Source: a virus. From it: a stretch of DNA of 34,536 nt. Positions within the stretch are counted from its first letter, which is position 1, and each line of letters begins with the position of its first letter. Positions 1-34,536 of the stretch are shown piece after piece. The stretch is from positions 1 through 34,536 of the IMG/VR virus record IMGVR_UViG_3300028399_000022; one strand, written 5' to 3'. Under the pieces are notes generated by a model. It was not told the DNA's origin and did no database searches. It saw only the letters and a list, made by a program, of their open reading frames with translations. The position numbers and the translations under genes are program-made.

Positions 1-1
1 G

Positions 2-549
2 AGGCGGGGGGGGATCGGGCTGGCGGGGGCGATCTCCCCGGCGGGAGCCCTGCTCAGGCAGGCAGCCCGGGCATTGGCCGGGGCCATCGGGCCGGCGGGG
101 GCGCTGGCGAGGCGGGCGGGGATCGGGCTGGCGGGGGCGATCTCCCCGGCGGGAGCCCTGCTCAGGCGGGCGGCCCGGGCATTGGCCGGGGCCATCGGGC
201 CGGCAGGGGCGCTGGCGAGGCGGGCGAGGATCGGGCTGGCGGGGGCGATCTCCCCGGCAGGAGCCCTGCTCCGGCAGGCGGCCCGGGCACTGGCAGGGGC
301 CATTGGGCCGGCGGGGGCGCTGGCGAGGTGGGCGGGGATCGGGCTGGCGGGGGCGATCTCCCCGGCAGGAGCCCTGCTCCGGCAGGCGGCCCGGGCACTG
401 GCAGGGGCCATTGGGCCGGCGGGGGCGCTGGCGAGGCGGGCAGGGATCGGGCTGGCGGGGGCAATCTCCCCGGCGGGAGCCCTGCTCCGGCAGGCGGCCC
501 GGGCATTGGCCGGGGCCATTGGGCCGGCGGGGGCGCTGGTGAGGCGGGC
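2..549 (+). repeat. 54-bp coding tandem repeat (18 residues), left part
   Basis: Ten consecutive 54-bp units alternate between an S-type (LAGAISPAGAL) and a G-type (LAGAIGPAGAL), giving a 108-bp higher-order period. Each S-type unit carries the inverted repeat CTCCC-CGGC-GGGAG. Units differ by only a few bases, and the array lacks stops in several frames on both strands, which creates long spurious frames. The frame assigned as coding is the one continuous with a recognisable domain at 33289. The array continues at 33934-34536. Confidence 0.92.
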
Positions 550-739
550 CTCCCATATCCTGCGGGGAGCGCTCAATCTCATCGGCGGGTTGCTCTGGAT
601 CCACAGGCTGCGCCCCCTGCGCTATTTCCGGGCCGAGATCGCCATTGCGCCAGGGCCGGGCATTGAGATCGCGATCTCCCCCGCGGAGCGGGCGGAGATC
701 GCCATCCAGAGCATTCAGGAGATCGGCCTATGGGCCTGA
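2..739 (+). CDS. Tail-fibre-like repeat protein, C-terminal part (continues from 33289-34536)
   Basis: The frame is open from the first bases, so this is the 3' part of a gene whose 5' part runs off the other end of the window. Ten 18-residue units of the type GIGLAGAISPAGALLRRA / ARALAGAIGPAGALARRA fill the first ~180 codons. A degenerate unit (SHILRGALNLIGGLLWI) follows, then a non-repetitive tail rich in EIAI motifs (FRAEIAIAP, GIEIAISPAERAEIAIQS) ending GLWA. The TTG at 74 lies inside a repeat and is not a credible start. Joined to 33289-34536 through a 16-base overlap, the product would be 656 residues: an N-terminal DNRLRE-type domain, about 21 repeats and a unique C-terminus. Its place between a tail-accessory gene and a BppU-like gene suggests a virion-surface fibre. 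Function is inferred from context. Confidence 0.7.
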   Translation, partial: RRGGIGLAGAISPAGALLRQAARALAGAIGPAGALARRAGIGLAGAISPAGALLRRAARALAGAIGPAGALARRARIGLAGAISPAGALLRQAARALAGAIGPAGALARWAGIGLAGAISPAGALLRQAARALAGAIGPAGALARRAGIGLAGAISPAGALLRQAARALAGAIGPAGALVRRASHILRGALNLIGGLLWIHRLRPLRYFRAEIAIAPGPGIEIAISPAERAEIAIQSIQEIGLWA

Positions 740-1038
740 GCGATCTGGTAGCTGGGAGCTATGGCTCCCAAATCATCATTGAGCTGCGCGAGGATGGGAG
801 AGCTGTGGATGTAAGCAGCTTCTCATCCTACTCCGTGTACCTGCGCTCCCCAGCAGGGGCGACAATCCAAAAAACGGCGCAGCTCTACACAGATGGCACG
901 GATGGGCGGATCACATTCCAGATCGCCCATGGGGATCTCAATGAGACAGGGACCTGGTGGCTTCAAGCCGAGGTCGCCGATGCGACCAGGCGCATCCGCT
1001 CCCGGCCCATCCAATTCTATGTCCAGGAGGCGATCTGA
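730..1038 (+). CDS. BppU-like baseplate/tail Ig-like domain protein
   Basis: A 102-residue protein predicted to be an all-beta virion domain. The pattern resembles the N-terminal domain of BppU-type baseplate upper proteins: a short strand with IIIELREDGRAVDVS, then VYLRSPAGAT, a TDGTDGRITFQI turn, and a GTWWLQAEVAD...RIRSRPIQFYV ending. It starts inside the end of the repeat-fibre gene (10-base overlap) and its stop overlaps the HNH start. BppU relatives attach receptor-binding proteins to the baseplate, which would fit its place beside the fibre. The similarity is by pattern only. A small Ig-like decoration protein is the alternative. Confidence 0.5.
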   Translation: MGLSDLVAGSYGSQIIIELREDGRAVDVSSFSSYSVYLRSPAGATIQKTAQLYTDGTDGRITFQIAHGDLNETGTWWLQAEVADATRRIRSRPIQFYVQEAI

Positions 1039-1502
1039 TGCCTAGGCGGGCTCCTCATCCCTGCGCGAATCCCGGATGCCCCGGGCTGGCCGAGGCCGGC
1101 CACCGATTCTGCCCCGAGCATCGGCGGGAGGAGCAGCGGCGCTATGATCGGGAGCGGGGGAGCGCCGCCCGGCGGGGCTATGGGGCGCGATGGCGCCGGC
1201 TGCGCCTGATGATCCTGGCCCGCCATCCGCTTTGCGCCGACCCCTATGGGATCCACGCAGAGCGGGGAGAGATCGTGGCCGCGACGGAGATTGATCACAT
1301 CATCCCGCGCTCGGCGGGAGGCACAGATGACCCGGCCAATCTCCAGCCCCTCTGCCGGCAATGCCACAGCCGGAAGACAGCCCGGGAGGATGGCCGCTGG
1401 GGAGGGGGGAGGAAATCTCTGGGGCCTCGCGAGAGGGACCGGTGCGGCGGCCTCGCGCACGCGGCCGCGAAATCGGCGACCGGGGGGGATGCGGAGCAAT
1501 GA
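1038..1502 (+). CDS. HNH endonuclease of the packaging module
   Basis: A 154-residue HNH nuclease starting at the ATG that overlaps the previous stop (TGATG). The N-terminus has a zinc knuckle (C9, C14, C25, H28). The HNH core follows: EIDHIIP (D86-H87), NLQPLCRQCH (N101, C106, C109, H110), and an extra Cys in RHPLCAD at about 66. HNH proteins encoded beside terminase genes are a recognised partner of HK97-type terminases and support cleavage at cos, so this suggests cohesive-end packaging (family knowledge). The stop overlaps the small-terminase start by 4 bases. The tail after residue 120 is low-complexity and basic. Confidence 0.88.
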   Translation: MPRRAPHPCANPGCPGLAEAGHRFCPEHRREEQRRYDRERGSAARRGYGARWRRLRLMILARHPLCADPYGIHAERGEIVAATEIDHIIPRSAGGTDDPANLQPLCRQCHSRKTAREDGRWGGGRKSLGPRERDRCGGLAHAAAKSATGGDAEQ

Positions 1503-1975
1503 AGGGACGGAAGCCCAAGCCCGCCGCGCTACGGCGGGCCCAGGGGAACCCGGGGAAGCGGCCTATCCCGGAGGAGCCGCAGCTCCGGCGGCCCGCACGG
1601 GCCCCCTACGCCCCCCGCTGGCTCAGCGAGGAGGCCAAAGCGGAGTGGCGTCGGATCGCCCCCCTGCTGCTGGAGGCCGGCCTCCTCACAGAGGCCGACT
1701 ACACGGCCCTGGCTCTCTACTGCCAAGCCTACGCCCGCTGGCGGAAGGCGGAGGAGAAATTGGCAGAGCAGGGGGAGATCCTGGAGAGTGCCCGGGGGGG
1801 CCTCTACCAAAACCCCTGGCTGGCCGTGGCGAATCGGGCCTGGGATCAGATCAGGAAATCCCTGGCCGAATTTGGCATGACACCCTCATCGAGGCTCCGG
1901 GTGGCCGTGGCCCGGGAGCCGGAGAAATCGCTGGCCGAGCTCCTATTTGAGGGCGTGGCTGAGCGGGAGAGATGA
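1499..1975 (+). CDS. terS: Terminase small subunit (P27 family)
   Basis: A 158-residue DNA-recognition subunit of the packaging motor. The start at 1499 (ATGA overlap with the HNH stop) gives the N-terminus MKGRKPKPAALRR..GNPGKRP, characteristic of P27-type small terminases. A helical core (WLSEEAKAEWRRIAPLL..LLTEADYTALALYCQAYARW) and the typical end with R..LAEFGMTPSSRLRV follow. It overlaps terL by 4 bases. It would bind the packaging site and load the large subunit. Length and motif order are normal for the family. Confidence 0.88.
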   Translation: MKGRKPKPAALRRAQGNPGKRPIPEEPQLRRPARAPYAPRWLSEEAKAEWRRIAPLLLEAGLLTEADYTALALYCQAYARWRKAEEKLAEQGEILESARGGLYQNPWLAVANRAWDQIRKSLAEFGMTPSSRLRVAVAREPEKSLAELLFEGVAERER

Positions 1976-3573
1976 GCCACATCAGGATCCCGGATGAGGG
2001 CGAGAGCTGCCCGGGCTACTACTTCGACGCCCAGGAGGCGGAGAAGGCCACCAGATTCTTCGAGCGGCTCCTGCACCACTCGAAGGGAGAATGGGCTGGG
2101 ACGCCCTTCTTGCTAGAGCCCTGGCAGCGGCGCATCATCCGAGCCCTATTCGGATGGCGACGACGGGACGATGGGACCCGGCGCTATCGGCGGGCCTACA
2201 TCGAGATCCCCCGCAAAAACGGCAAGAGCACGTTGGCGGCGGGGATTGCGCTTTATCTGCTCTTTGCCGATGGGGAGCCAGGAGCGGAGATCTACTCGGC
2301 GGCAGCAGACCGCGACCAGGCGGCGATTGTGTTCGGCGAGGCCCAGCGGATGGTCGAGGCCTCGCCGGCCCTGGATCGGATGGCGGAGATCTACAAGCGG
2401 GCTATCTATGTGCCGTCAACGCACTCCGTGTACCGCGTGCTCTCCGCCGACGCCTACACGAAGCACGGCCTCAATGCACACGGAGTCATCTTTGATGAGC
2501 TGCACGCCCAGCCGACCAGGGAGCTGTGGGATACCCTGACGACGGCCGTGGGATCGCGGCGGCAGCCGCTGATCATCGCACTGACGACGGCGGGCTGGGA
2601 CCACAACAGCATCTGCTGGGAGGAGCACGAATACGCCCGCCAGGTGGCCGAGGGGATCATCGAGGATGATGCCCTCCTGCCCATCATCTACGCCGCCGAC
2701 CCGGACGACGACTGGCGGAGCGAGGCTACCTGGGCAAAGGCAAATCCCAATCTGGGCATCTCCGTGAAGCTGGACTACCTGCGGCAGGAGGCGCGGCGGG
2801 CGGAGCTCTCGCCGGCCTACCTCAACACATTCCTACGGCTCCATCTGAACATCTGGACCCAGCAGGAATCTCGCTGGATTCCGATGGACGCCTGGGACGC
2901 CTGCGCCGAGCCGCCGATCAATCCCCGGATGCTGGAGGGGCAGATCTGCTACGGAGGCCTCGACCTGGCGAGCACCTCCGACATTGCGGCATTGGTGCTC
3001 GATTTCCCGCCGGAGGATGGGGAGGAGGGAGGCCGGCACATCTGGTTGCCTTTTTTCTGGATCCCGGAGGAGAATCTGATGGAGCGGGCACGCCGGGACC
3101 GCGTGCCCTACGACCTCTGGCTGCGGCAGGGGCTGCTGAGGGCCACCCCCGGCAACGCGATTGATTACGAGGCGATCATCCGCGACATCGAGGAGCTGGC
3201 CGAGCGCTACCGGATTGCCGAGATCGCCTTCGATCGCTGGGGGGCATTCCAGATCAGCAATCGGCTCCAGGCGATGGGGCTGACGATGATCGCCTTCGGG
3301 CAGGGCTACCGCTCGATGAGCCCGCCGGCGAAGGAGCTGCTCCGGCTGATCCTCGATGGCCGGCTGGCCCACGGAGGCCATCCTATCCTGCGCTGGATGG
3401 CCGACAATGTGGTCGTCGTCCAGGACGCGGCCGGCAACATCAAGCCCGATAAGAGAAAGAGCAGGGAGCGGATCGACGGGATCGTGGCCGGGATCATGGC
3501 GCTGGATCGGGCGATGAGGCACGGGGGCCGGCAGCCCTCTGTCTATGAGCGGCGAGGACTGCGGACGCTATGA
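1972..3573 (+). CDS. terL: Terminase large subunit (HK97 / Terminase_1 type)
   Basis: A 533-residue packaging motor and nuclease. The ATPase part shows a Walker A-like RKNGKST (residues 81-87) and Walker B VIFDE (172-176). The RNase H-like nuclease part shows GGLDLAS (328-334, D331), FDRWGA and the C-terminal KSRERIDGIVAGIMALDRA. All key acidic positions I can see are intact, and the length is usual. It pumps DNA into the prohead through the portal and makes the cuts. Codon use here favours GAC and ACG more than in many neighbours, which favour GAT, hinting at mosaic ancestry. Confidence 0.95.
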   Translation: MSHIRIPDEGESCPGYYFDAQEAEKATRFFERLLHHSKGEWAGTPFLLEPWQRRIIRALFGWRRRDDGTRRYRRAYIEIPRKNGKSTLAAGIALYLLFADGEPGAEIYSAAADRDQAAIVFGEAQRMVEASPALDRMAEIYKRAIYVPSTHSVYRVLSADAYTKHGLNAHGVIFDELHAQPTRELWDTLTTAVGSRRQPLIIALTTAGWDHNSICWEEHEYARQVAEGIIEDDALLPIIYAADPDDDWRSEATWAKANPNLGISVKLDYLRQEARRAELSPAYLNTFLRLHLNIWTQQESRWIPMDAWDACAEPPINPRMLEGQICYGGLDLASTSDIAALVLDFPPEDGEEGGRHIWLPFFWIPEENLMERARRDRVPYDLWLRQGLLRATPGNAIDYEAIIRDIEELAERYRIAEIAFDRWGAFQISNRLQAMGLTMIAFGQGYRSMSPPAKELLRLILDGRLAHGGHPILRWMADNVVVVQDAAGNIKPDKRKSRERIDGIVAGIMALDRAMRHGGRQPSVYERRGLRTL

Positions 3574-17530: not shown

Positions 17531-18912
17531 GGCGGCGATCCCTGGGCGGGCGGAATGCGGAGCTAGATGCCATCCGGCTCCGTGTGCTGCTGAATCAGGT
17601 GGCCCAGCCTCAGACACCCGTGGACCACGGGAGCCTGCAGGGGCTGGGGGACGATGACCACACGCAATACGTACACGTTTCCGTGGCGCGTACTGTCTCC
17701 GCCCAACACACATTCAATCCCTCGGCGGCCGGCGCGCCATTCCTCCTGGGAGCCAATGCCCAGGGGCAATTGGTAGCCGGCTTCAATGCCGATCAATTGG
17801 ATGGCTACGAGGGAGCGGATTTCGCCCTGGCCGGGCACAACCACGATCACGGGGGATTGCAGGGGCTGGGGGACGACGATCACACGCAATACGTACACGT
17901 TTCCGTGGGGCGCACCATCTCTGCCCAGCACACATTCAATCCCTCGGCGGCCGGCGCGCCATTCCTCCTAGGAGCCAATGCCCAGGGGCAATTGGTGGCC
18001 GGATTCAACGCCGATCAATTGGATGGCTACGAGGGAGCGGATTTCGCCCTAGTCAGCCGCCAGATCATCGCCGGGGCGGGGCTGTCGGGGGGGGGCGATC
18101 TCTCGGCGGATCGCACGCTGGCGGTCCAGGTCGGCCCCTGGATGGGAATAGCCAATGATCGCGTGCAGTGGGAGCCGTCTCAGTTCCTGGCCGTCCCGGG
18201 TGGCTCCGGGAGGCCGGAGACCGCCTCGTCCCTGGCAGGCGCGATCTCCATCGTGCAGGATGGCGGGGTGGTTCTGGTGCCGCCATCCACATCGCCCCTC
18301 CAGGGGGGGGTGGCCTCGGGGATTGATAAATCATTCAGCATCATCGGGATCGGCGGGCCGCTGGCTTGCCGGGTGGATCGGCCCAGCATCGAAATCAATT
18401 CGGCCTCGGCGCGGCAGGTGGCTATCGTGGGCGTGGGATTCGAGGGGAGCGGGGCGAATACGCCGGCGCTAAGCCTGAAGAACACCGGCACCTACGGCCC
18501 CGAATGGCGGCTATGGAACTGCTACATCCATAGCACGGCCACCGGGGCAGGGGGGATTGAAATCACATTCCCCGGCACGGCGATCCTCTACGGATGCGAA
18601 ATCTACGCCGCCGACGGGAACGGGCTCGCGACGATAGGGAGCGGAGCGCCCTCGATGATCCATCTCTATGGCTGCAGGATCAGGGCCACCGGCAGCTCAT
18701 CCATCATCGGGATCGCGCTGGGCTACAACACAGGGGCGGAGATCAGGGTATTTGGGGGAAGCGTCGAGGGGGGGAGCTACTCGCTCCAGGCCGATGGGGG
18801 CACGATCAGCCTATCGGGCATCCCCTATTGCCCCCAGGGATTCCAGGAGCTCAATGGGGGGAATGTGAGGGGGCGCTATCTGGATTCCCTATGGAACGAG
18901 CAGGTGGCATAA
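17527..18912 (+). CDS. Tail fibre/spike with DDDHTQY repeats and beta-helix
   Basis: A 461-residue protein beginning at the ATG that overlaps the hub stop. An N-terminal helix is followed by two ~74-residue repeats, each starting GLGDDDHTQYVHVSV and including FNPSAAGAPFLLGANAQG and GFNADQLDGYEGADFAL, a known tail-fibre repeat style. A short GLSGGGDLSADRTLAV stretch leads to a C-terminal ~240-residue region with parallel beta-helix character (SFSIIGIGG; VAIVGVGFEG; WNCYIHSTATGAGGIEITF; LYGCEIYAADGNGLATI; LYGCRIRATGS), as in tail spikes. It likely binds host surface sugars. Last gene of the late operon. Confidence 0.82.
   Translation: MRRRSLGGRNAELDAIRLRVLLNQVAQPQTPVDHGSLQGLGDDDHTQYVHVSVARTVSAQHTFNPSAAGAPFLLGANAQGQLVAGFNADQLDGYEGADFALAGHNHDHGGLQGLGDDDHTQYVHVSVGRTISAQHTFNPSAAGAPFLLGANAQGQLVAGFNADQLDGYEGADFALVSRQIIAGAGLSGGGDLSADRTLAVQVGPWMGIANDRVQWEPSQFLAVPGGSGRPETASSLAGAISIVQDGGVVLVPPSTSPLQGGVASGIDKSFSIIGIGGPLACRVDRPSIEINSASARQVAIVGVGFEGSGANTPALSLKNTGTYGPEWRLWNCYIHSTATGAGGIEITFPGTAILYGCEIYAADGNGLATIGSGAPSMIHLYGCRIRATGSSSIIGIALGYNTGAEIRVFGGSVEGGSYSLQADGGTISLSGIPYCPQGFQELNGGNVRGRYLDSLWNEQVA
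17637..18051 (+). repeat. 222-bp in-frame tandem duplication in tail fibre
   Basis: Two copies start at 17637 and 17859 (offset 222 bp, 74 codons) and are nearly identical through the GADFAL motif. Differences are mostly synonymous. In-frame fibre duplications change reach and avidity without breaking folding. Confidence 0.9.
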
Positions 18913-22490: not shown

Positions 22491-24176
22491 CTACTCCTCC
22501 TTCCCCCCGGCCCTGGTCGGGGATCGCGATGGATTCGTCGTAGTAGTAGCGCCCTCCTGGAGGGCACCGCGCACGATGTCGTGGGCCCGCCCACCGGCGT
22601 AGCCGAAAAGAGCAAGCTCGATCTGGCGCATGCTCATCCCCGTCGCCCGCATTTCGCGGATGCGGGCGACGATCTCACCATCCGCCGCAGCTCGCCCCTC
22701 CCGGCGGGGAGAGGCGTTCCTGGGGCCGCCCTGCCCGGCGAGGGCAGCCTGAATCTGCTCGAGGCTGATCCAGGGGGCCTGGATTTTGATCAAGCCCCGG
22801 CCCGGGATGGCGGCCAGGGCCCGGCCGGGCACATCCTCCAGCCGCTCGGCCCCCGACTGGCCCAAGAGTACCTGGCTCTGGCTGGCCGACAGCGCTTTGA
22901 ACTGAACCCGGGTCGCCAATTGATTGCGAATCGCCGGGTCCAGGCTCCTGGCCCGCCAATCCTGGCCGGCCAGGACCATCCAGAGCCCGTATTTCCGCCC
23001 TCGGAGGGCGACCCGGCGCATTGCTCTCTCGATCTCCCGATTGCCCAGTAGGGCCGTGCCCTCGTCCACGAGGGCAATGATGGGGCGGAGCCGCTGCTCT
23101 GCCCGGGCCCGGGCATTGTAGGCGGCCAGGCTGTCGGTGCCCGGGTGGGAGGCGAATGCCTCCCGCCGCCGATCCAGCTCCTCATTTAGCTCCTGGAGGA
23201 GGGCCAGGGCCTCCTCCTCCGATTCGGCCATTGGGTAGAGGAGCCGATCGGATTGGGAGAAGGGGGCCAGCGTAGCCCCCTCCAAATCAATGAGGAGGAG
23301 ATCTGGTTGCTCCTCGGCCAGGATGAGCTGGTAGCCGAGCGCCCGGAGGAAGGCGCTTTTACCCCAGCCGCTGCTGCCGCCCACAGCCACGTGGACGAGC
23401 CGCTGCATATCCCCCCGGATGATCTCCGGGGAGCCATCCTCCTCCCGGATGCTGATCCCCAGGATCAGCCGAGATAGGCTGGGGCGGCCCTCCAGCAGGC
23501 CGAGGAGAGGCACCCGCGACGGCCAGGGGGGAGGGGGGCTCTCCGGCTCTTCGGCAGGGGCGAGGGAGATCGGCGCCGCTCCTCCGCCGCCGGGCTGGGC
23601 CAGGATGGGGGGATGGCGATGGATGGCGGAGGCGATCTGCAGGAGCTGGGCCATCATCGTAGCCCGCCCCTGCGCACGCTCCGCGCCCGGCGGGATGACG
23701 GGGATCACGGCGATCTGTCCGGCGCGATCCAGGGAGGCATAGATGGTCGTGCCGGTGATCTGCCGATTGGGATCGTGGATGATCCACCCGCCTGCGACGC
23801 GGAGGCGGATCAGGGGGAATTGCCCATCCGGGCCGGGGCGGATCTCCCCTGCCCGGCGATAGGCGTAGGCGACGCCGGCCCAGGCCAGGCCGGCCAGGCC
23901 GGCCAGGGCGATGGCGCCGGCTGCTACCTCGCCGGCTCGGCGCCAGGGCTCCATCGCGGCCCGATGGGCCAGCTCGGCCCGGGCCGCCTCGTTTTCTATT
24001 CGGGCCCGCTCCCGCAGCTCATCTCGGATGATGATCTGGCGGACCCCGCCGGCAATCTGCCACCCTCCGAAGAGGGCCAGGAACAGGATTAGGCCAATGG
24101 ATATGGACAAACTCCTATCCCGCATCGAACGCCTCTTGACTTTCCGGCCCCATTGGGCTACAATGGGGCCGCCCAT
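22491..24176 (-). CDS. Membrane-anchored FtsK-like DNA translocase
   Basis: 561 residues from the ATG at 24176 (ribosome site AGAGG); an ATG at 24125 (MRDRS) would shorten it by 17. Two membrane segments (~26-46 and ~84-106) precede a P-loop ATPase of the FtsK/SpoIIIE/TraB type: GGSSGWGKS (266-274), LLLIDLEG (~293-300), IIALVDEGTAL (D371-E372) and WMVLAGQDWRARSLDPAIRNQLATRVQFKA (the LATQRP-like region). A C-terminal ~60-residue helix-turn-helix (EIVARIREMRATGMSMRQIELALFG) may recognise DNA, like FtsK gamma. Such proteins pump double-stranded DNA for partition or conjugal transfer. It is unusual in an ordinary siphovirus. Confidence 0.8.
   Translation of the reverse strand: MGGPIVAQWGRKVKRRSMRDRSLSISIGLILFLALFGGWQIAGGVRQIIIRDELRERARIENEAARAELAHRAAMEPWRRAGEVAAGAIALAGLAGLAWAGVAYAYRRAGEIRPGPDGQFPLIRLRVAGGWIIHDPNRQITGTTIYASLDRAGQIAVIPVIPPGAERAQGRATMMAQLLQIASAIHRHPPILAQPGGGGAAPISLAPAEEPESPPPPWPSRVPLLGLLEGRPSLSRLILGISIREEDGSPEIIRGDMQRLVHVAVGGSSGWGKSAFLRALGYQLILAEEQPDLLLIDLEGATLAPFSQSDRLLYPMAESEEEALALLQELNEELDRRREAFASHPGTDSLAAYNARARAEQRLRPIIALVDEGTALLGNREIERAMRRVALRGRKYGLWMVLAGQDWRARSLDPAIRNQLATRVQFKALSASQSQVLLGQSGAERLEDVPGRALAAIPGRGLIKIQAPWISLEQIQAALAGQGGPRNASPRREGRAAADGEIVARIREMRATGMSMRQIELALFGYAGGRAHDIVRGALQEGATTTTNPSRSPTRAGGKEE
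24136..24164 (+). promoter_or_regulatory. Promoter-like site facing right, with operator-like inverted repeat
   Basis: TTGACT (24136-24141), 17 bases, TACAAT (24159-24164), continuing as ATGGGG, which is very similar to the region after the other strong promoters. A 10-bp inverted repeat GGCCCCATTG - GGCTA - CAATGGGGCC (24146-24170) covers the -10 box and could be a repressor site. It lies inside or just before the 5' end of the translocase gene and faces away from it. Confidence 0.5.
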
Positions 24177-25545: not shown

Positions 25546-25602
25546 TAGCCCCGGGCTACCCCCCCCCTAGCCCCGGGCTACCCCCCCCCTAGCCCCGGGC
25601 TA
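25546..25602. repeat. Three tandem 22-bp palindromic units
   Basis: TAGCCCCGGGCTA occurs at 25546, 25568 and 25590, each pair separated by exactly nine C (period 22 bp). Each unit is a near-perfect palindrome centred on one C. The third overlaps the stop codon of the gene at 25600-26373. Possible roles are an iteron-like protein-binding array, a weak terminator cluster or a processing signal. Confidence 0.85.
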
Positions 25603-26373
25603 CCCCTCTTCGCGTAGCTGATCGGCCTGCTCCAGGAGGGAAGAGATGGGAATCTGCTCCCACGCCTCCTCATCCAGCTCCGCCTGGCGGAGCCAGCGGG
25701 CGTGGGCCTCCTGGAGCCCGGCGGGGAGGCGAGCGACCTGCTCCGGCGTTAGGAGGGGGAGCACCTCACGGACATAGAATCTATAGCGCCCGTGAGAATC
25801 CTGCTTCCAGCGCAGGATCCCCTCGTCCCGGAGCACTTCCATCCATCCCCTCTGCCAGTAGCGGCGGCCATCCCGCCGCCGCTCCCGCCCGATGAGCTGC
25901 TGGCGAGAGCAGCCGAGGGTGGCCGCCAATGTGGCGATGCTGGGGGTGGCCGGGCCTCCGCCCCAGCCATAGGAGCGGAGGATCAGCCAGAGCAGCCAGG
26001 GCCCCCGCCCTAGGAGAGGGAGCCAGAACCTGATAGCATAGTGGGGAGTAGCGACCCAGCCCCGGCGGGCCGGGTCGAATTCAACGAGTTCGACGTCAAT
26101 CTCCGTCCGCGGGTCGCCCACCGCCTCCTGGGCGAATCCGCTCCCCCCGACCGGCTCCTCACGCACGATGATCTCGGAGAAGCCGGCCTCCTGGGCGGCC
26201 TGGCGAATGCGTAGATTCCGTTCTGCCAGCAATTCGAAGCTCAGGGGATCGCCCGGGTAGGCCAGGAGGATCAGATGATCCTCCTCGGCCTGTAGGCGGT
26301 TGTGGAGGTGGACGGCCAGATGAGGGGCGCTGTATCTGATTATCTGTAGGAAATGCTGGAGCCGCCTATCCAC
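25600..26373 (-). CDS. Candidate replication initiator: DnaA-domain-I-like plus winged helix
   Basis: 257 residues from a GTG at 26373 (GGAGGGG site). The N-terminal ~80 residues (LQAEEDHLILLAYPGDPLSFELLAERNLRIRQAAQEAGFSEIIVRE) resemble the pattern of DnaA domain I (a strand, 'P...WL..R....I..A'). The C-terminal half is a helix-turn-helix typical of phage/plasmid replication proteins: WLLWLILRSYGWGGGPATPSIATLAATLGCSRQQLIGR, then WMEVLRDEGILRWKQDSHGRYRFYV. DnaA-like domain I recruits helicase, so an origin-loading role would fit. No origin is proven. The tandem palindromes directly downstream are a candidate binding site. Confidence 0.5.
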   Translation of the reverse strand: MDRRLQHFLQIIRYSAPHLAVHLHNRLQAEEDHLILLAYPGDPLSFELLAERNLRIRQAAQEAGFSEIIVREEPVGGSGFAQEAVGDPRTEIDVELVEFDPARRGWVATPHYAIRFWLPLLGRGPWLLWLILRSYGWGGGPATPSIATLAATLGCSRQQLIGRERRRDGRRYWQRGWMEVLRDEGILRWKQDSHGRYRFYVREVLPLLTPEQVARLPAGLQEAHARWLRQAELDEEAWEQIPISSLLEQADQLREEG

Positions 26374-26770
26374 AGCTGCCCCTCCATGCCCGGACAGCCC
26401 GCTTCCTGAATTTCTCCAGGGCCGCCAGGGTGATCCATCCTGGCGTAACGACCCTGTAGACCTTCCAGAGGATCTCGGGGCCCTGGGCGATGTAGTAGCC
26501 CAGGTCGCCCCACTCCTCTGCTGCTGCCGCCCAGTCGCGGCGGGCGACGGCGGCGAGGAATTCCAGGAATTCTCCCCGCTTCCATCCGATCTGGGGGGAG
26601 CCGGGGCGGGAGCGATCCCGCTGCTCCTGGATGATGAGCTTCCGCAGGGCCACCAGCGGCCCTGCGGGCTGATCGCCCCGGGAGCGGGCGATCAGATAGG
26701 CGCAGGCCCGCAGGGCGGCGCGGTCGTCGCCGTGGATGATGGCATTGTCTATTGCTCTGATGTGCCTCAT
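26366..26770 (-). CDS. MazG-like nucleotide pyrophosphohydrolase
   Basis: 134 residues from the ATG at 26770, which overlaps the integrase stop by 4 bases. The C-terminal half has the all-alpha NTP-PPase pattern AAAEEWGDLGYYI (EE..D metal ligands) and LAALEKFRKRAVR (KF.KR end). The N-terminal half is helical (NAIIHGDDRAALRACAYLIARSRGD). MazG-type enzymes hydrolyse (d)NTPs or alarmones to monophosphate and pyrophosphate. Phage copies may clean nucleotide pools or influence host stress signalling. The spacing between motifs is shorter than in canonical MazG, so substrate is open. Confidence 0.55.
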   Translation of the reverse strand: MRHIRAIDNAIIHGDDRAALRACAYLIARSRGDQPAGPLVALRKLIIQEQRDRSRPGSPQIGWKRGEFLEFLAAVARRDWAAAAEEWGDLGYYIAQGPEILWKVYRVVTPGWITLAALEKFRKRAVRAWRGSCG

Positions 26771-27795
26771 TTGCGTCTCTCTCCTTCGGTGGCCTCGGCC
26801 GCCGAGCGCCCGTAGGTCTCCAGCTGGTCCCGCACCTTGGCGATCTCGGTGTGGGGGGCGTAGATGCGCCGTGTCGTCGAGATGTCGGCGTGGCCTAGGT
26901 AGGTCTGCAGCACGTCCAGGTCCATCCCCTCGTGGAGCAGTTGCTGGGCCCGGTAGTGGCGGAAGTCGTGGGGCGAGGTGCCCCGGTAGAGCCCCAGGGC
27001 TTTGGCCGCGTCCTTGACGATGCGCCACAGGGTCCAGCGGCTCAGAGGCTTTCCCGCACCGCGACCGTGGGAGATGAAGAGGGCCGGGTGGTTGTCCTCC
27101 CGCTCCCGCAGGTAGTCGGCGATGGCCCGCTGGGCCTCCGGCGTCAGGAGGATGATGCGCTCCTTGCCCCCTTTGCCCTCGATGCGCACTTCCCGCTTGC
27201 GCCCGTCCAGGACCATCTCCCGGGTGAGGGAGGCGACCTCGCTGACCCGGGCTGCCGATGCATAGAGGGTATGCACCACCGCCCTCGCCCGCAGGATGAT
27301 CAGCCGCCTCTGCCGGGCCCGCCATCCGTCGGGCTCCGGCAGGGGCAGGCTGTCGTAGTAGGTGACGATGCGGGGCAGCCCTGGGTCGGGATCGTGAGCG
27401 GTGGCTCGGGGGCCACGGAAGCGGCCTCGGGCGGCCCGGAGGCGGTTCTGAGCCTTGCCCAGGTGGAAGCCGGGGGCCAGACGGTCGTGGGCGTCCAGCC
27501 AGACCAGGAAGCGTTGGACACCGGCCAGGTAGGTCTGGATGGTGGCAGGGCTGTAGCGGCGCTTCTGGACCATCCACTCGTGGAAGGCGACCAAGAGATC
27601 GTCGCGGAAGCCGATGACGGGGATGGGGTGGGGGAGGGGGGGCGGGAGGTAGTCGGTCTCGGCGATGAACTCGGCCAGCCGCTTGAGGGCGTGGCCGTAC
27701 CCCTCCCGCGTCCTAGGGCTGGCCTCGGCCAGCCCTAGGAGAAACTCCTCCCGCCCCTCTATCGGCGGCGGCCGTACCACCGCCGATCTGCCCAT
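26767..27795 (-). CDS. int: Tyrosine recombinase / integrase
   Basis: 342 residues when started at the ATG 27795 (MGRSAVV); a longer frame exists but its extra N-terminus looks unnatural. The N-terminal SAM-like core-binding domain (~15-105) and the catalytic domain are complete: R183 (AARVSE), K211 (GKGGKER), H276-R279 (HDFRH), H302 (LGHADISTTRRIY) and nucleophile Y312. It would catalyse attP x attB integration or resolve dimers. Codon use differs from neighbours: GATC occurs only about 4 times in 1 kb versus very densely in structural genes, which suggests a recent acquisition. No attP core could be recognised. Confidence 0.92.
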   Translation of the reverse strand: MGRSAVVRPPPIEGREEFLLGLAEASPRTREGYGHALKRLAEFIAETDYLPPPLPHPIPVIGFRDDLLVAFHEWMVQKRRYSPATIQTYLAGVQRFLVWLDAHDRLAPGFHLGKAQNRLRAARGRFRGPRATAHDPDPGLPRIVTYYDSLPLPEPDGWRARQRRLIILRARAVVHTLYASAARVSEVASLTREMVLDGRKREVRIEGKGGKERIILLTPEAQRAIADYLREREDNHPALFISHGRGAGKPLSRWTLWRIVKDAAKALGLYRGTSPHDFRHYRAQQLLHEGMDLDVLQTYLGHADISTTRRIYAPHTEIAKVRDQLETYGRSAAEATEGERRK

Positions 27796-27896
27796 CCCTC
27801 GAGGCCCAGGGCCTCTATGATCCGCCAGTAGATGCTCCATTTCAGCTGGAGCATCCTCCGTGTCGCCCACCACCACCAGACCCGGATCCTATTCAT
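27759..27896 (-). CDS. Possible tiny Trp-rich basic protein, 45 aa
   Basis: The ATG at 27896 begins MNRIRVWWWWATRRMLQLKWSIYWRIIEALGLEGWADRRWYGRRR (given in pieces: MNRIRVWWWWATRR at the N-terminus, ALGLEGWADRRWYGRRR at the C-terminus). It overlaps the integrase start by 37 bases. The Arg/Trp composition suggests membrane or nucleic-acid contact. The ribosome site is weak. The region 27897-28049 upstream holds no gene with an acceptable start. A sensible-looking frame there (CAWWNDDFGQCAVAAIAGAL...) ends at the same ATG but lacks a start codon. Confidence 0.3.
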   Translation of the reverse strand: MNRIRVWWWWATRRMLQLKWSIYWRIIEALGLEGWADRRWYGRRR

Positions 27897-28049: not shown

Positions 28050-28724
28050 TCAGAACAGGTCCGCCAACTGCCGCTCCTCCCAAGTCGCGGCGAGGATAGT
28101 GCGGCCGTTGAACACGTAGTAGTGGGCGGCCGGCCGCCCGTAGAGCCGGCCGCTATAGCCCGTCCTGAAGACCTGTCCCTTGGGGATCAGGGCGACCATC
28201 TGCCGCCCGCTCCCCATCCGGCCGGCCATCCCTTGGGCGATCCGACCCTCGACTATGACCCTGCCGGGGAACGGCAGGAATCCGGCGGGGTAGATGTTGT
28301 CGGGGTGGATGTCCTTCTCTTCCGCATAGCGGAGGGCAAGGGCGTAGGAGGGGAACTGCCGATACCAGGACCTTCGGGGCGTGCCTACCTCGTAGGTTCC
28401 ATCCCGGTCGCCGGTGTGTTCGTTCGACCCCCGGTAGCCGATGGGGGTCTGAAGAACAACGATCGCCTGTTCGTCGCTGGTCGCCGCCCGGACGGCAACC
28501 AACTTGGGGCGGCCCGACCGGGTGGTGGTGAGCCGGGCAGCGAGGATCCGATCGCCCGGCTCTGCGCCGGCGACCGGAAGCACGCCCAGCTCCCGGCCCC
28601 GGCCGGCCTCGCCGACGATGATGGCCGGGATCTCGATGTTGGCGCCCTTGAGGCGGAATGAGGACACCCGGGCGCCATCCTCGACCTCGCCGGCCGAAAC
28701 TGTGAAGATGCGGTAGCTATCCAT
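28050..28724 (-). CDS. Unknown protein co-encoded with ParB, 224 aa
   Basis: The start ATG at 28724 has AGGAGG 6 bases upstream and overlaps the ParB-like gene end by 8 bases. The N-terminal half is beta-rich (DSYRIFTVSAGEVEDGARVSSFRLKGANIEIPAIIVGE; GDRILAARLTTTRSGRPKLVAVRA). The C-terminal half has helices and a Tyr-rich segment (SYALALRYAEEKDI; TGYSGRLYGRPAAHYYVFNGRTILAATWEE). I do not recognise the family. Its tight coupling to the ParB-like gene suggests a partner or regulator, replacing the usual ParA neighbour. Confidence 0.65.
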   Translation of the reverse strand: MDSYRIFTVSAGEVEDGARVSSFRLKGANIEIPAIIVGEAGRGRELGVLPVAGAEPGDRILAARLTTTRSGRPKLVAVRAATSDEQAIVVLQTPIGYRGSNEHTGDRDGTYEVGTPRRSWYRQFPSYALALRYAEEKDIHPDNIYPAGFLPFPGRVIVEGRIAQGMAGRMGSGRQMVALIPKGQVFRTGYSGRLYGRPAAHYYVFNGRTILAATWEERQLADLF

Positions 28725-30195
28725 CCCCTTCCTCCTGCGGTAGATATGACAACAACCAACTCTCAATGATCCGCCTGGCCCGCTCTGGATCCGCTTTTGG
28801 GATCCAGATGCTCTTTTGCACGATCGCTTTGGCGATCAGATCGGGCCAGGCGGGATCCACGCCTGCCTCCATTGAATCCAGGGCCGCCCGGGCCGCTTTG
28901 GTATCCAGAGCGGCCAGGATCGCCAAATTGCCCTCCCTGGCGCGGATGGCGTCGGCGATCCGCCGGGTGGCCTCATCCTGGAGCCGGCGGATCTCCCGGC
29001 GAATCTTCCGCTTTTTGCCGGCCTCCTCGGCCTCTCCGGTGCATAGGCAGCCGCCCCGGCGCCGGCACACCCACATCGCGCCGGGGAACTCCTCCGGCCC
29101 CAGCACCATCGAACCCATCCAGAACCGGGGAGCCAGATGGAGATGTTCGCATTGGGAGGCGATGGCCTTCTCCAGGCCTCCCGTTTGATCTGGGTAGAAG
29201 AAACGGAAAGAGGCCTGATACTTGATCTCTTCGGCCTCCCCATAGGGGATGGCCGGGAATCCCAATGCCTGGGAGGCCAGGCCGGTTTGAGAATCCTTCC
29301 AGATCTCCTCTTTCTCCTCCCAGCAGCGCAGATCGCTGCATAGATTGCCCTGCCGGCTGAGCCGGCGAGGGCAATCCCGGCAGACGGGGGAGTGGATCTC
29401 CCCCTCCCCCTCAATGGGCTCATCCCAGGGAAAGGGGGCCTGATCGAGCGGCTTAGCCACTTGGTTCCGGATCCGGGAGGCGATCTCCCGGATCTGATCG
29501 GAGGGGAGGCCCTCATCCAGGGCCGCCTCCAACCTGGCCATTAGCCAGGCCGGTGCCCGCTTCCGGGCCTCCTCAGGGAGGCCATAGACAGGCTGGGCGG
29601 CCTGGGCCTGCCGCTCCGACAGGCGGCCGGCGGCCAGCCGCTCCCGGATTGGCTCCGGGAGGCCTAGAAGCCTCAGCTTGTTGGCCACTGTTGCCCGGGC
29701 CAGGCCCAGGCGCTCGGCTACTTGGGCCTGGGACCAGCCGAAATCCTCCATCATCTTTTTAATGGCCTGGGCCTCCTCCAGCGGCGAGAGATCCCGCCGC
29801 TGGGCATTCTCGGCCCAGCCGGCGATGGCCACCTCCTCATCGGAGAGGAGGAGCACATCCACCGGCATGGCCCAGTATTCCTCCCGCCCCTCCATATGGA
29901 GGCGGAGGAAGGCGGCGAGCCTGGAGTGGCCGTAGGCGAGCTGCACGACGGCCCCTCGCTCGAGTTGCCGATGGGCCCAAGAGGGAACGACAACCCCATC
30001 CGGGGGGATCAGGCGCTCCCCCCGGCGATCCACTAGGCGGCCGGCGGGCACCTGGAGGAGCCCTTTGGTCTCCGGGCGGGAGACCGCCCGGGCCAGGATG
30101 TCGGCCGCCAAGGCAGCGATGTGGTCCTCATCCTCGCCCTGGCGGGCCTGCCAGGGCGAGGGGACGATCTGATCCAGAGGGACGAAGACGATCAC
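28717..30195 (-). CDS. ParB-like CTPase/DNA-binding protein with Cys-rich C-terminus
   Basis: 492 residues from a GTG at 30195 (GGAGGAGG upstream, GTGA overlap with the RHH gene). The N-terminal ParB/sulfiredoxin-like domain (FVPLDQIVPSPWQAR) keeps the CTP-binding motifs GHSRLAA (89-95) and ENAQRRDLSPLEEA (129-142). A KorB-type HTH follows (DFGWSQAQVAERLGLARATVANKLRLL, ~151-177). The C-terminal half is unusual, with a Cys cluster (VCRDCPRRLSRQGNLCSDLRCWEE) and CRRRGGCLC, probably zinc sites. ParB-CTP clamps load at palindromic parS sites. Three parS-like palindromes are present here. No ParA ATPase is visible, so its role may be regulation, replication or condensation rather than classical partition. 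Confidence 0.85.
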   Translation of the reverse strand: MIVFVPLDQIVPSPWQARQGEDEDHIAALAADILARAVSRPETKGLLQVPAGRLVDRRGERLIPPDGVVVPSWAHRQLERGAVVQLAYGHSRLAAFLRLHMEGREEYWAMPVDVLLLSDEEVAIAGWAENAQRRDLSPLEEAQAIKKMMEDFGWSQAQVAERLGLARATVANKLRLLGLPEPIRERLAAGRLSERQAQAAQPVYGLPEEARKRAPAWLMARLEAALDEGLPSDQIREIASRIRNQVAKPLDQAPFPWDEPIEGEGEIHSPVCRDCPRRLSRQGNLCSDLRCWEEKEEIWKDSQTGLASQALGFPAIPYGEAEEIKYQASFRFFYPDQTGGLEKAIASQCEHLHLAPRFWMGSMVLGPEEFPGAMWVCRRRGGCLCTGEAEEAGKKRKIRREIRRLQDEATRRIADAIRAREGNLAILAALDTKAARAALDSMEAGVDPAWPDLIAKAIVQKSIWIPKADPERARRIIESWLLSYLPQEEGDG

Positions 30196-30500
30196 GGTTC
30201 CTCCTCCCCCGCCCCTGTTTGCGCGCAAACAGGGGCGGCCTCGGAGAACTCAACGCGCTCGTCGCAATCCGGGCAGTGATAGGCCTCCCCATCGGGGGCC
30301 AAATCCATGATCCCCAGGGGGAGGCCACAATGGGGGCAGCGATCCGGCTCGGGTTCGGCGGCCGGCGCCTGCCGCCGCCGGCGGGCCTCATCCTCAACGA
30401 GGCGCCGGACTATCGCCGAGACAGGCCGATCCTCCTCCCGCGCCCACCGGCGCAGGAGGGCGGCTTGCTCCTCATGAATGCTGATGCTGATCCTAATCAT
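30192..30500 (-). CDS. Ribbon-helix-helix plus zinc-ribbon regulator, paralogue-like
   Basis: 102 residues from the ATG at 30500 (GGAGGTGG site). The N-terminal MIRISISIHEEQAALLRRWAREEDRPVSAIVRRLVEDEARRRR is a CopG-type RHH. A zinc ribbon follows with CPHCGLPLG and YHCPDCDERVEF. It shares its layout with the gene at 18979-19329. It is directly coupled to the ParB-like gene (GTGA). Its last codons contain the perfect palindrome at 30209-30238, so the protein or ParB may bind within its own gene. Confidence 0.7.
   Translation of the reverse strand: MIRISISIHEEQAALLRRWAREEDRPVSAIVRRLVEDEARRRRQAPAAEPEPDRCPHCGLPLGIMDLAPDGEAYHCPDCDERVEFSEAAPVCAQTGAGEEEP
30209..30238. promoter_or_regulatory. parS-like palindrome, copy 3 (30 bp perfect)
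   Basis: The core TGTTTGCGCGCAAACA (30216-30231) is extended by CCGCCCC / GGGGCGG to a 30-bp perfect palindrome. It lies in the 3' end of the RHH gene, ~15 bases before the ParB start. The core shares TGTTT...AAACA with bacterial parS (TGTTTCACGTGAAACA, known consensus). Confidence 0.68.
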
Positions 30501-31477: not shown

Positions 31478-31894
31478 ATGGATCCTCAGAGCATCCAGCA
31501 ATACGGCCTGGTGGCCGTCGTCGCCGCCCTGATCTCCATCCTGAGCAATCGGATCCTCCCCTGGGCGCTGCGCAGCGCCGAGCAGAGGGAGGCTCATCGC
31601 CGGCAGGAGGAGGCCGAGATGCGGCAGGCGATCATCTCCGCCTATGAGCGATTCATCGCCCAGCAGGCAGAGACGATCCAATTCATCGCCGGGGCGACGG
31701 AAGCGCTGCATTCCCTCGAGGAGGCGTTTCAGGAGCAATCGCGGCTGAATGCCCAGGCGCTGGGGGAGATCAGGGAGGGGCTGGCTCAGATCCGCCAGGC
31801 ATTGCAGGAGGAGATCGGCGATCTCCTCCCCACCGTGCGCGATCTGGCCCGGCGGGTAGCCCTGCTGGAGAGCGCGATCCGAGGGGGGCGCTGA
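31478..31894 (+). CDS. Membrane-anchored coiled-coil protein of the lysis cassette
   Basis: 138 residues. A single N-terminal membrane helix (YGLVAVVAALISILSNRILPW, ~9-29) is followed by about 100 residues of charged heptad-like helix (SAEQREAHRRQEEAEMRQAI; LEEAFQEQSRLNAQALGEIREGLAQIRQALQEE; DLARRVALLESAI). The layout resembles spanin-like or holin-associated proteins. The stop overlaps the peptidase start by one base, so the two are co-translated. Confidence 0.65.
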   Translation: MDPQSIQQYGLVAVVAALISILSNRILPWALRSAEQREAHRRQEEAEMRQAIISAYERFIAQQAETIQFIAGATEALHSLEEAFQEQSRLNAQALGEIREGLAQIRQALQEEIGDLLPTVRDLARRVALLESAIRGGR

Positions 31895-32646
31895 TGGGGC
31901 GGGATGAATGGCAGCGGGCCGTGCGGGCTATGCGCTCCATCCCGGGGCGCGTGGATGAGGTTCTGCGGCAGATCGGAGAGCTGCGGAAGCTCCATCGGGC
32001 CCTGGATGATGTAATTCGGCTTCTAATCCAGCAGGGGGATCTGCTGGAGCAGGATGCGCGGAATCTGGCCCAGATCACGCGCACACTCCGATACTACACG
32101 GATGAGCAGCCCATCTCGCGGATCCGGCTGGAGATCCCCTGGCTCTCGCAGATGGGGCCGGGCGCCGGCTACGCCCCCGGGGATTGCGGGGCGGCCACCC
32201 TGGCGATGTGGCTCCGCCATCTGGGCCACGATGTGGCCGTGGATGATGTCTCACGGGCCACGGGTCGTCCGCCCGGATTCCGATTTCTGCGCGTAGGCGA
32301 TCTCATCAGAGCTGCCAGGCAATGGGGGATGGAGCTCTATTGGCGGCGGGGGCTGGGGATGGATGATCTGATCGAGGAGCTGGAGGCGGGGAGACCGGCG
32401 ATCGCCCTCATCCATTATCCCTCCCTGCCCCAGAATCATCGCTACGATCCCCGCTACCCCTACGGGCATTTCATCCTGATCGCCGGATGCGATCGGGATT
32501 CCATCATCTACCACGACCCCTACTGGCCACCCGATTCCGGGCGGGGGGCCTACGAGGAGATCCCACGGGCCGATTTCGAGCGGGCCTGGGCCCGCTCCTA
32601 TCTGAATGGCAATAGCCCCAATCAGGCATTGAGGATGCGAGCATAG
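31894..32646 (+). CDS. C39-type papain-like cysteine peptidase, candidate endolysin
   Basis: 250 residues. The N-terminal ~70 residues form a coiled coil (VDEVLRQIGELRKLHRALDDVIRLL). The C39-like domain follows with GDCGAATLAMWL (catalytic Cys98), GHFILIAG (His192) and YHDPY (Asp208), a complete triad. C39-type domains cleave peptides. In this spot beside a holin-like gene, cutting peptidoglycan cross-bridges or processing a virion protein are both plausible. No separate cell-wall binding domain is visible, and no other endolysin was found in the window. Confidence 0.75.
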   Translation: MGRDEWQRAVRAMRSIPGRVDEVLRQIGELRKLHRALDDVIRLLIQQGDLLEQDARNLAQITRTLRYYTDEQPISRIRLEIPWLSQMGPGAGYAPGDCGAATLAMWLRHLGHDVAVDDVSRATGRPPGFRFLRVGDLIRAARQWGMELYWRRGLGMDDLIEELEAGRPAIALIHYPSLPQNHRYDPRYPYGHFILIAGCDRDSIIYHDPYWPPDSGRGAYEEIPRADFERAWARSYLNGNSPNQALRMRA

Positions 32647-32652
32647 GAGGGA

Positions 32653-33279
32653 ATGATGCGAGGGGAGATCGGATTTGGAGGGAGCCTCTCGGCCGAGCTG
32701 ATTCCTGGGGCGGAGCCGGCCCCGCTCCTCTGGCGGCTCCGCAATTGGATGCGGCCGGCATTCCTGTGGGGGTGGCTCTGCTATCGGCTGGCCAGTGCCT
32801 TCACGGCGATCACGGGGATCCCCACGATCGTCGCCCGGCTGGAGGCCACGCTGATCCGGGCCGATGGCCGCCGGGTGCACTATGGCGTGTTGGGCTACCG
32901 CGTGGTGACTGACGCCGGGGTTGCTTTCCTGGTGGACGATTGGGACAACGACGCGACCGACATCACAACGATGAACTACCACGCCTGTGGCACCGATTCC
33001 ACGGCCGAGGCGGCGACCGACACGGCCCTTGGGGCCGAGGCGACGACGGTGACTGACCGGGTCGCCGGCACCAAGAGCCAGCCGGCCGCGAATCAGCTCC
33101 AGACCGTGGGCACGCAGTCGTTCACGGGCACGGCGGCGATCACGGAGCATGGCCTATTCTCCTCGATCACGGAGGGGGCCGGGACGCTCTGGGATCGCTC
33201 TGTTTTCGCGGCCATCAATGTGGGAAGCGGCGATTCCATCCAATGGACATACACTTGCACGATCAATAGCGGGGGCTAA
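32653..33279 (+). CDS. Virion surface/tail accessory protein
   Basis: 208 residues (ATG 32653 or 32656 after GGAGGGA). The N-terminal ~50 residues contain a hydrophobic segment (FLWGWLCYRLASAFTAITG). The rest is beta-rich and Thr/Ala-rich, ending SFTGTAAITEHGLFSS...TLWDRSVFAAINVGSGDSIQWTYTCTINSGG, a C-terminal pattern repeatedly seen in phage structural proteins of this size. The gene lies between the lysin and the repeat fibre, so a surface location is likely. Exact role unknown. Confidence 0.6.
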   Translation: MMRGEIGFGGSLSAELIPGAEPAPLLWRLRNWMRPAFLWGWLCYRLASAFTAITGIPTIVARLEATLIRADGRRVHYGVLGYRVVTDAGVAFLVDDWDNDATDITTMNYHACGTDSTAEAATDTALGAEATTVTDRVAGTKSQPAANQLQTVGTQSFTGTAAITEHGLFSSITEGAGTLWDRSVFAAINVGSGDSIQWTYTCTINSGG

Positions 33280-33288: not shown

Positions 33289-34536
33289 ATGCCATCATTC
33301 GTGGCCGATGCCGATACCTATCTGGCCCGAGGCAACGACGGACTGGCGGCCGTTTACAATTACGGAGCGGATGAGGAGATCCTGCTTGCCGATCCCTCAT
33401 TCGCCTATGCCAGGATCGGCTTATTGCATTTCGATCTCTCCGGCATTCCGCCTGGGGCATCGGTGCAGTCGGCCACGCTCTATCTGACACTATCCCGTGA
33501 TGCACCCACATCTCTGAACCCGATCATCTCCGTCCATCGTGTCCTAAGTGCCAATTGGACCTGGATTGAAGGGACGAAATCGGGATCGCTGGCCGGGAGC
33601 GGGGAGCCGTGCTGGAACTACCGAGCCTACAGCTCGACCCGATGGGCCGGGGATGCCGGCGGAGATGGGGGGGCAGATGCGGGGTGCTCGGTCGCCGGCA
33701 CCGATTATAGCGCCACAGCGGCCGGCACCTCGGAGGGGCTCCAGGGCAAAGTGGCCGGCTACACGACGGCGATCTCTCTGGATCCAAATGAAGTCGAGCT
33801 GCTGATCCAGAATAACTATGGGCTGCTCATCAAGCAGGGAGTTATCGCCGTCTTATACATTGCATCGAGGCAGAACACATCCTACTCCGGCCCCACCCTC
33901 GAGATCATCTATGGCCAGCAATTCAGCCAGGCCGTCGCCGGGGCTGCATCCCCGGCGGGGGCGTTGGCGAGGCAAGCGGGGATCGGGCTGGCGGGGGCGA
34001 TCTCCCCGGCGGGAGCCCTGCTCAGGCGGGCGGCCCGGGCGCTGGCTGGAGCCATCAGCCCCTCCGGCCTGGCCTCGGGGATGCGGCTCATCGCGCAGGC
34101 GCTGGCTGGGGCCATTGGGCCGGCGGGGGCGCTGGCGAGGCGGGCGAGGATCGGGCTGGCGGGGGCGATCTCCCCGGCGGGAGCCCTGCTCAGGCAGGCG
34201 GCCCGGGCACTGGCAGGGGCTATTGGGCCGGCGGGGGCGCTGGCGAGGCGGGCGGGGATTGGGCTGGCGGGGGCGATCTCCCCGGCGGGAGCCCTGCTCA
34301 TGCGGGCGGCCCGGGCGCTGGCTGGAGCCATCAGCCCCTCCGGCCTGGCCTCGGGGATGCGGCTCATCGCGCAGGCGCTGGCTGGGGCCATTGGGCCGGC
34401 GGGGGCGCTGGCGAGGCGGGCGGGGATCGGGCTGGCGGGGGCGATCTCCCCGGCGGGAGCCCTGCTCAGGCAGGCAGCCCGGGCATTGGCCGGGGCCATC
34501 GGGCCGGCGGGGGCGCTGGCGAGGCGGGCGGGGATC
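33289..34536 (+). CDS. Tail-fibre-like protein, N-terminal part: DNRLRE domain plus 18-aa repeats
   Basis: Open from the ATG at 33289 (an in-frame stop is just upstream) to the last base: 416 codons without a stop. Residues ~1-213 match a DNRLRE-type beta-sandwich, common in surface and carbohydrate-binding proteins: FVADADTYLARGN, ARIGLLHFDLSGIPPGASVQSATLYLTLS, NWTWIEGTKSG, SGPTLEIIYG. Then 18-residue repeats begin (VAGAASPAGALARQA, LAGAISPAGALLRRA), including two 20-residue variants (LAGAISPSGLASGMRLI). The 3' part is at 2-739. Likely a virion fibre in which the repeats form a spacer rod or amphipathic segment between binding domains. Confidence 0.82.
   Translation, partial: MPSFVADADTYLARGNDGLAAVYNYGADEEILLADPSFAYARIGLLHFDLSGIPPGASVQSATLYLTLSRDAPTSLNPIISVHRVLSANWTWIEGTKSGSLAGSGEPCWNYRAYSSTRWAGDAGGDGGADAGCSVAGTDYSATAAGTSEGLQGKVAGYTTAISLDPNEVELLIQNNYGLLIKQGVIAVLYIASRQNTSYSGPTLEIIYGQQFSQAVAGAASPAGALARQAGIGLAGAISPAGALLRRAARALAGAISPSGLASGMRLIAQALAGAIGPAGALARRARIGLAGAISPAGALLRQAARALAGAIGPAGALARRAGIGLAGAISPAGALLMRAARALAGAISPSGLASGMRLIAQALAGAIGPAGALARRAGIGLAGAISPAGALLRQAARALAGAIGPAGALARRAGI
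33934..34536 (+). repeat. 54-bp coding tandem repeat, right part
   Basis: Eleven units: the first degenerate, eight of 54 bp and two variants of 60 bp (LAGAISPSGLASGMRLI type). The array is truncated by the end of the window. The last 16 bases match bases 1-16 with one mismatch (C at 34529, G at 9). Some S-type units here are almost identical to those at 110-330. Confidence 0.92.

Follow-up and report, generated by a model that had tools for sequence, protein, structure and literature searches.

A repeat gene lying at both ends of a tailed phage genome belongs to a widespread family of proteins with 18- and 20-residue units

Repeat arrays at the two ends of the genome

The window analysed here covers an entire virus record of IMG/VR (34,536 bp). 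The record is classed as linear and carries the terminase, portal, capsid and tape measure genes of a tailed phage. An open reading frame (ORF) made largely of short repeats runs off its right end, and a second one runs in from its left end. The locus raises the question of whether the two ORFs are pieces of one gene, and what kind of protein such a gene would encode. The features of the two ends and the marker genes of the phage are as follows.

33289..33933, plus strand: N-terminal part of the repeat protein, a CBM96 (DNRLRE-like) domain and a linker (Pfam PF24517, E 4.5e-8)
33934..34536, plus strand: right arm of the array; of its 11 units, nine have 18 residues (the final one truncated to 17) and two have 20
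34042..34101, plus strand: 20-residue variant unit, LAGAISPSGLASGMRLIAQA; units of 20 residues recur in the family
34318..34377, plus strand: second 20-residue variant unit
2..559, plus strand: left arm of the array, 10 units of 18 residues, with a two-unit (108 bp) higher-order repeat
560..739, plus strand: unique C-terminus containing short repeats of beta-like type (AEIAIAPGPGIEIAISPAERAEIAI); stop codon at 737-739
1361-1975: terminase small subunit
1972-3573: terminase large subunit
3740: portal
7339: capsid
12501: tape measure

The right-hand ORF (33289-34536) comprises 416 codons and is open to the last base of the window; the left-hand ORF (2-739) is open from the first bases and passes from repeats into the unique C-terminus. 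A three-unit pattern matched the window 11 times and 100 shuffled sequences not once, and by this comparison the arrays are far beyond chance. The other reading frames of the array are also open, but the frame used here is supported because more than 50 phage proteins match it by homology. Differences between copies of the same unit type fall most often at the third codon position (136, versus 71 and 54 at the other two), and the codon differences comprise 146 synonymous and 71 non-synonymous ones. This third-position bias is consistent with selection on the repeat reading frame.

A first-pass annotation of this DNA had described in-frame 54-bp repeats running to the last base. The array and its frame bear this out, but two units of the right arm have 20 residues and the DNA period of the array is 108 bp, which corresponds to two units. 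Next-neighbour units are mostly 89-100% identical (76% in the last pair), compared with 59-67% for immediate neighbours, and the right arm holds a 276-bp duplication of five units with an exact run of 121 bp. The DNRLRE-like domain, also recognised in the first pass, was confirmed with Pfam: residues 4-92 match CBM96 at 33.5 bits, above the curated cut-off of 26, the match covering profile positions 5-87 of 164, that is, half of the profile. The N-terminal domain thus appears to be of a carbohydrate-binding type, and it may bind glycans.

The fragments at the two ends almost certainly form a single gene

The first-pass annotation had further claimed that one gene spans both ends in the same frame. 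Direct end-to-end joining does not give such a frame, since placing base 34536 next to base 1 shifts the one ORF against the other by a single base. The ends instead share a terminal overlap.

34413..34536, plus strand: right copy of the terminal overlap, identical to 1-124 except at base 9
1..124, plus strand: left copy of the terminal overlap

Joining through this 124-bp overlap, with its one mismatch, keeps the frame, and the joined protein would have about 620 amino acids and at least 19 units (overlap counted once). The overlap alone is no proof of joining: with a period of 108 bp and next-neighbour identities of mostly 89-100%, two arms of a longer array could resemble each other in this way. 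Synteny in relatives with an unsplit gene provides independent support. The relative IMGVR_UViG_3300048837_000544, whose terminase large subunit (TerL) is 68% identical to that of the window, carries in order a phrog_5417 homologue, an unsplit 623-aa protein of LamG domain and repeats, a 110-residue protein, an HNH endonuclease, the terminase small subunit (TerS), TerL and the portal. In the window, a phrog_5417 homologue (at 32653) is followed by the repeat ORF up to the end, and from base 1 the repeat ORF runs on to its stop, followed by a 102-aa protein, HNH, TerS and TerL. Three further loci (L275, L276 and L283) have the phrog_5417 gene, the repeat gene and the HNH gene in this order, with TerL next in L276 and L283.

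If the ends were not joined, they would be arms of two different repeat genes or the product of an assembly chimera. The linear class of the record, the mismatch in the overlap and the occurrence of two adjacent repeat genes in some relatives (L122, L128) would agree with such an origin. We hold it to be very improbable, however, as the N-terminus is found on one arm only and the C-terminus only on the other, the joined length of about 620 residues matches the 623-aa protein of the relative, and the flanking gene order is conserved. On this strong though indirect evidence, we concluded that the two fragments are almost certainly one gene that was split by assembly. The linear class of the record is probably due to the inexact terminal repeat.

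Only contigs that carry the array at both ends, two in all, serve as evidence here: the window and G028 (34,498 bp). In G028 the N-terminus and the first units stand at one end, and the last units and the C-terminus, beside a head-tail adaptor gene, at the other. The second phage contig with both ends inside the same kind of array, similar in size to the window, is recorded as IMGVR_UViG_3300044495_000028 (L120/L256/L257), and it suggests that circular phages with the repeat gene may be misclassed as linear. Arrays of this kind account for the way in which assemblies of such phages can come apart within the repeat gene. An excess of contigs ending inside the array was also considered; the count was unremarkable and no claim is made from it.

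The repeat belongs to a widespread phage family

A search for related loci with the whole repeat ORF confirmed none, probably because low-complexity filtering hides the array, and tblastn searches of phages, with either the repeats of the window or its C-terminus as query, gave no match. We therefore scanned IMG/VR with a translated three-unit DNA pattern and with an HMM built from 122 two-unit seeds. The results showed a family of at least 58 distinct IMG/VR loci, obvious duplicates removed, with the consensus SLAGTLT[SP]AGALVKQTAK (in a fuller form position 13 is [VL] and position 14 is [KR]). The two-unit HMM matched the two window fragments with E-values of 2e-59 and 1e-48, which are partly non-independent because the window units are among the seeds. 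The repeat is therefore not unique to the window phage, as the first pass had anticipated in supposing that similar repeats may exist in phage databases. Many raw pattern matches (ADAGxx, GGAGGV, VVTAGV) were six-residue or low-complexity repeats and were rejected. Among 84,980 species genomes, 45 stretches matched the pattern; two were true members, on a Pseudonocardia MAG contig (L221) and a Saccharibacteria MAG contig (L249), and the others were low-complexity sequence or other repeats.

Among the matches listed, the spacing between units was 18 residues in 441 cases, 20 in 92, 19 in 7 and 17 in 4; the absolute 18:20 ratio is approximate, since the HMM seed and the anchors favour regular units, but the asymmetry between even and odd lengths is not built in. 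Unit length is thus quantised. The N-terminal domain is exchanged between members: a LamG domain was found in 6 of 41 proteins among the matches listed, CBM96 in two and Gly_rich_2 in one, the rest being without a Pfam match. LamG forms the N-terminus of the closest relative, and CBM96 that of the window protein. The C-termini of the family often carry short beta-like repeats.

The repeat gave no Pfam match above the cut-off, searching PDB sequences with the profiles of the repeat and of the partner returned nothing relevant, five example repeat strings were absent from the papers searched, and no account of a phage fibre repeat of 18 residues was found in a search of the literature. Judged from its sequence matches, the repeat is a widespread and previously unnamed phage family. 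What is new is the repeat, the 18/20 quantisation and the linked partner described below; the general idea of the phage fibre is already known. Once the family has a name, many 'hypothetical proteins' become a module that is open to testing.

A long ORF with related 18-residue repeats that lack glycines (SLVASIIKQANKVLSIS) was observed in the podovirus MW202615.1 (L258; 4710-7709, plus strand), near a phrog_5417-like gene. The deposited annotation of MW202615.1 has a protein, UOF79353.1, on the strand opposite to this ORF.

Related arrays differ in length by whole units

The first-pass annotation had suggested that the array changes in length by recombination, and had proposed looking for copy-number variation in related phages. 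Such variation was found. Two members, L118 and L166, are more than 90% similar along most of the array. The differences between them amount to exactly one whole 20-residue unit, a single place where a unit of 18 residues in one stands against a unit of 20 in the other, and about two of the short repeats at the C-terminus. The suggestion therefore holds in the family. For the window phage itself, the likeness of next-neighbour units and the 276-bp duplication are the pattern that unequal recombination leaves, and from these we infer that its array may change in length as well.

A phrog_5417 gene accompanies the repeat gene

The gene directly upstream of the repeat gene belongs to a family to which PHROG gives no function.

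32653..33279, plus strand: partner gene, phrog_5417 family (PHROG E 2e-10; supported by the linkage counts)

When whole contigs were considered, 44 of 47 among the matches listed had a phrog_5417-family gene besides the repeat gene. The partner profile used for this count (A6) includes sequences from many of the searched contigs, but about 16 of the 44 contributed no sequence to it. In the flanks of the repeat loci, a homologue was present at 37 of 58 among the matches listed, always on the same strand and in 36 cases within 3 kb, and nearly all the remaining loci had little upstream DNA in the comparison. The control loci gave no homologue, neither in 78 selected by terminase nor in 48 others selected by pattern. 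The reverse search, starting from phrog_5417, found the repeat gene within the flanks of 56 of 73 loci, some of the contigs being shared with the first set. The partner is well conserved, its homologues being 32-64% identical to the window protein, whereas the N-terminus of the repeat protein is not. The upstream partner is a member of PHROG 5417, although the PHROG entry mentions neither a function nor any connection with a repeat protein. In L122 and L128, a single phrog_5417 gene has two 18-residue repeat genes side by side next to it.

The rod is more readily explained as beta-structured than as helical

The first-pass annotation had pointed out that 18 residues equal five alpha-helical turns, and had proposed predicting the structure of the units. 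The predictions were divided. For the left arm of the window, AlphaFold2 (AF2) gave long helices with low confidence (mean pLDDT 65, pTM 0.25; five models 36-65), whereas for the array of the closest relative it gave regular beta strands with pLDDT of about 76-90 over the first 120 residues. AF2 over-predicts beta-solenoids for perfect repeats (PMC11795689); since the units of the relative are imperfect copies, this concern is weaker here, yet still present. The beta model of the relative aligned to known beta-helices with VIA-align Z of 15-17 (3p4g: Z 16.9, 253 residues, 3.7 A), and Foldseek against the PDB returned nothing significant (best E 0.11). The aligned structures are beta-solenoid rods such as the left-handed beta-helix of LpxD and the RTX ice-adhesin 3p4g, but the alignment to LpxD is poor (rmsd 11-12 A) and the model may have arisen as an artefact of AF2.

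A continuous amphipathic alpha-helical rod would agree with the AF2 helices on the window arm and with the hydrophobicity of the family, which peaks at 100 degrees (P 0.03, uncorrected for the choice of frequency); the 60-degree (six-residue) component expected of a left-handed beta-helix with hexapeptide repeats was not above shuffles (P 0.34 for the family, 0.19 for the window). The unit lengths speak against the helix. The only common length change is an insertion of two residues, which would turn a helix by 200 degrees but keeps strand alternation, so that lengths of 18 and 20, rarely 19, fit a beta structure. Proline and glycine also stand at fixed positions of the unit: Gly 4 and Gly 10 are invariant in the seeds, where the search pattern demands both, and more than 90% conserved in many columns of alignment A2, and Pro occurs at position 8 in a third of the seeds. 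The Thr-rich units of relatives and the AF2 beta strands of the closest relative likewise count against a helix, which we consider unlikely. A beta rod is favoured over it, by a modest balance of these predictions and patterns.

Triple beta-spiral shafts, as in the adenovirus fibre and reovirus sigma-1, have repeats of about 15 residues, a variable number of repeats and a distal binding domain. The phage repeat resembles them in its short units, its Gly/Pro turns, its alternating hydrophobic residues, its variable copy number and, on the reading preferred here, its distal binding domain, but differs in its unit length of 18/20 instead of about 15 residues and shows no sequence match to them.

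Gene neighbourhood leans towards the head or neck of the virion

Two genes lie between the repeat gene and the terminase genes.

730..1038, plus strand: small protein downstream of the repeat gene (phmmer 4e-8 to a protein of L163 with BppU_N)
1038..1502, plus strand: HNH endonuclease, first gene of the packaging module and order marker after the repeat gene (PF01844, E 2.5e-14)

As called, the HNH ORF and the TerS ORF (1361-1975) overlap by about 140 bp, and TerS probably starts further downstream. The L163 homologue of the small protein matches BppU_N (PF10651, E 1.8e-7) and also follows a repeat gene; the window protein itself gave no match to PF10651 at E 10. BppU_N was absent from the 47 repeat contigs searched, so this neighbour is not general.

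Genes downstream of the repeat genes include head-tail adaptors, neck proteins, terminase, portal and tail terminators (connector neighbours are found, for example, in L129, L201 and L182). The phrog_442 head-tail adaptor was present in 17 of 47 contigs and, in 12 of these 17, within 3 kb of the repeat, among the matches listed. In the window and its near relatives the repeat gene is instead the last of the late operon, with the packaging genes following directly; in the window it comes after a C39 peptidase/lysis-type gene and away from the tail genes. This neighbourhood argues for a structural protein and leans towards the head or neck. Taken together with the modular architecture, it makes a fibre the likely identity of the protein.

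The BppU_N-like protein after the repeat gene, the binding-type domains and weak PHROG matches to tail fibre families would instead suit an ordinary receptor-binding tail or baseplate fibre. Such a role is possible, but we rather doubt it: a tail-fibre-like gene is already present behind the tail genes of the phage (17530-18912), and in many relatives the repeat gene stands with head-tail connector, terminase or portal genes. A non-virion protein, secreted or on the host surface and made late in infection, has only a small chance of being correct. The repeat gene does adjoin a lysis-type cassette in the window (31478-32646), and its partner is assigned no function by PHROG; however, relatives repeatedly have it among structural and connector genes, and the PHROG and Pfam matches give no hint of secretion.

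In the tail-fibre-like gene, a 222-bp tandem duplication (17636-18050, 93% match) encodes GLQGLGDDDHTQYVHVS motifs.

A modular adhesin as the probable product

The explanation that we prefer, and regard as probable though well short of settled, is a modular structural adhesin or fibre of the phage, in which an exchangeable binding-type domain is carried on a recombining rod of 18/20-residue units, with phrog_5417 as a near-obligate partner. The joined gene of about 620 codons would encode an N-terminal CBM96 domain, the rod and a short beta-rich C-terminus. The N-terminal domain may have a surface glycan or matrix as its target; the rod, whose structure is most likely beta, would set the reach and hold the binding domain off the particle, to which the C-terminus, the phrog_5417 partner or both would attach the adhesin. 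It would work with this partner, and sometimes with a small Ig/BppU_N-like protein. Unequal recombination between near-identical repeats would change the length of the rod, and exchange of the N-terminal domain would change what is bound.

Known phage fibres are usually anchored by their N-terminus. In the repeat protein the variable end is the N-terminus, which counts against the adhesin model and the orientation that it supposes. The place of the window gene after a C39 peptidase/lysis-type gene, and the match of CBM96 over half of its profile, count against the model too. Phage adhesins tipped with LamG or CBM domains (PF13385, PF24517) likewise combine a carbohydrate-binding-type domain with an elongated repeat in a late gene; the present proteins differ from them in a rod of 18/20-residue units without Pfam or PDB match, and in having the variable domain at the N-terminus.

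More tentatively, and with less confidence than in the adhesin as such, we propose a two-component device, in which a phrog_5417 anchor and a length-variable beta-rod with exchangeable N-terminal lectin domains would be mounted on the capsid or neck and not on the tail tip. If so, it would be a rapidly evolving second device for binding host or matrix. Phage fibres determine what a phage sticks to, and copy-number change and domain exchange within one gene would be a simple way to alter both reach and binding.

Other features of the window

A perfect 22-bp tandem repeat of 2.8 copies, TAGCCCCGGGCTACCCCCCCCC, was observed at 25546-25606, largely between annotatable genes; it could be a regulatory or origin-like element. 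On the minus strand, the segments 22491-24176, 26767-27876 and 28717-30228 hold an FtsK/SpoIIIE-like ATPase (PHROG) and ORFs judged by eye to be similar to a tyrosine recombinase and to a ParB-like protein, a mixture that suggests plasmid-like or temperate maintenance.
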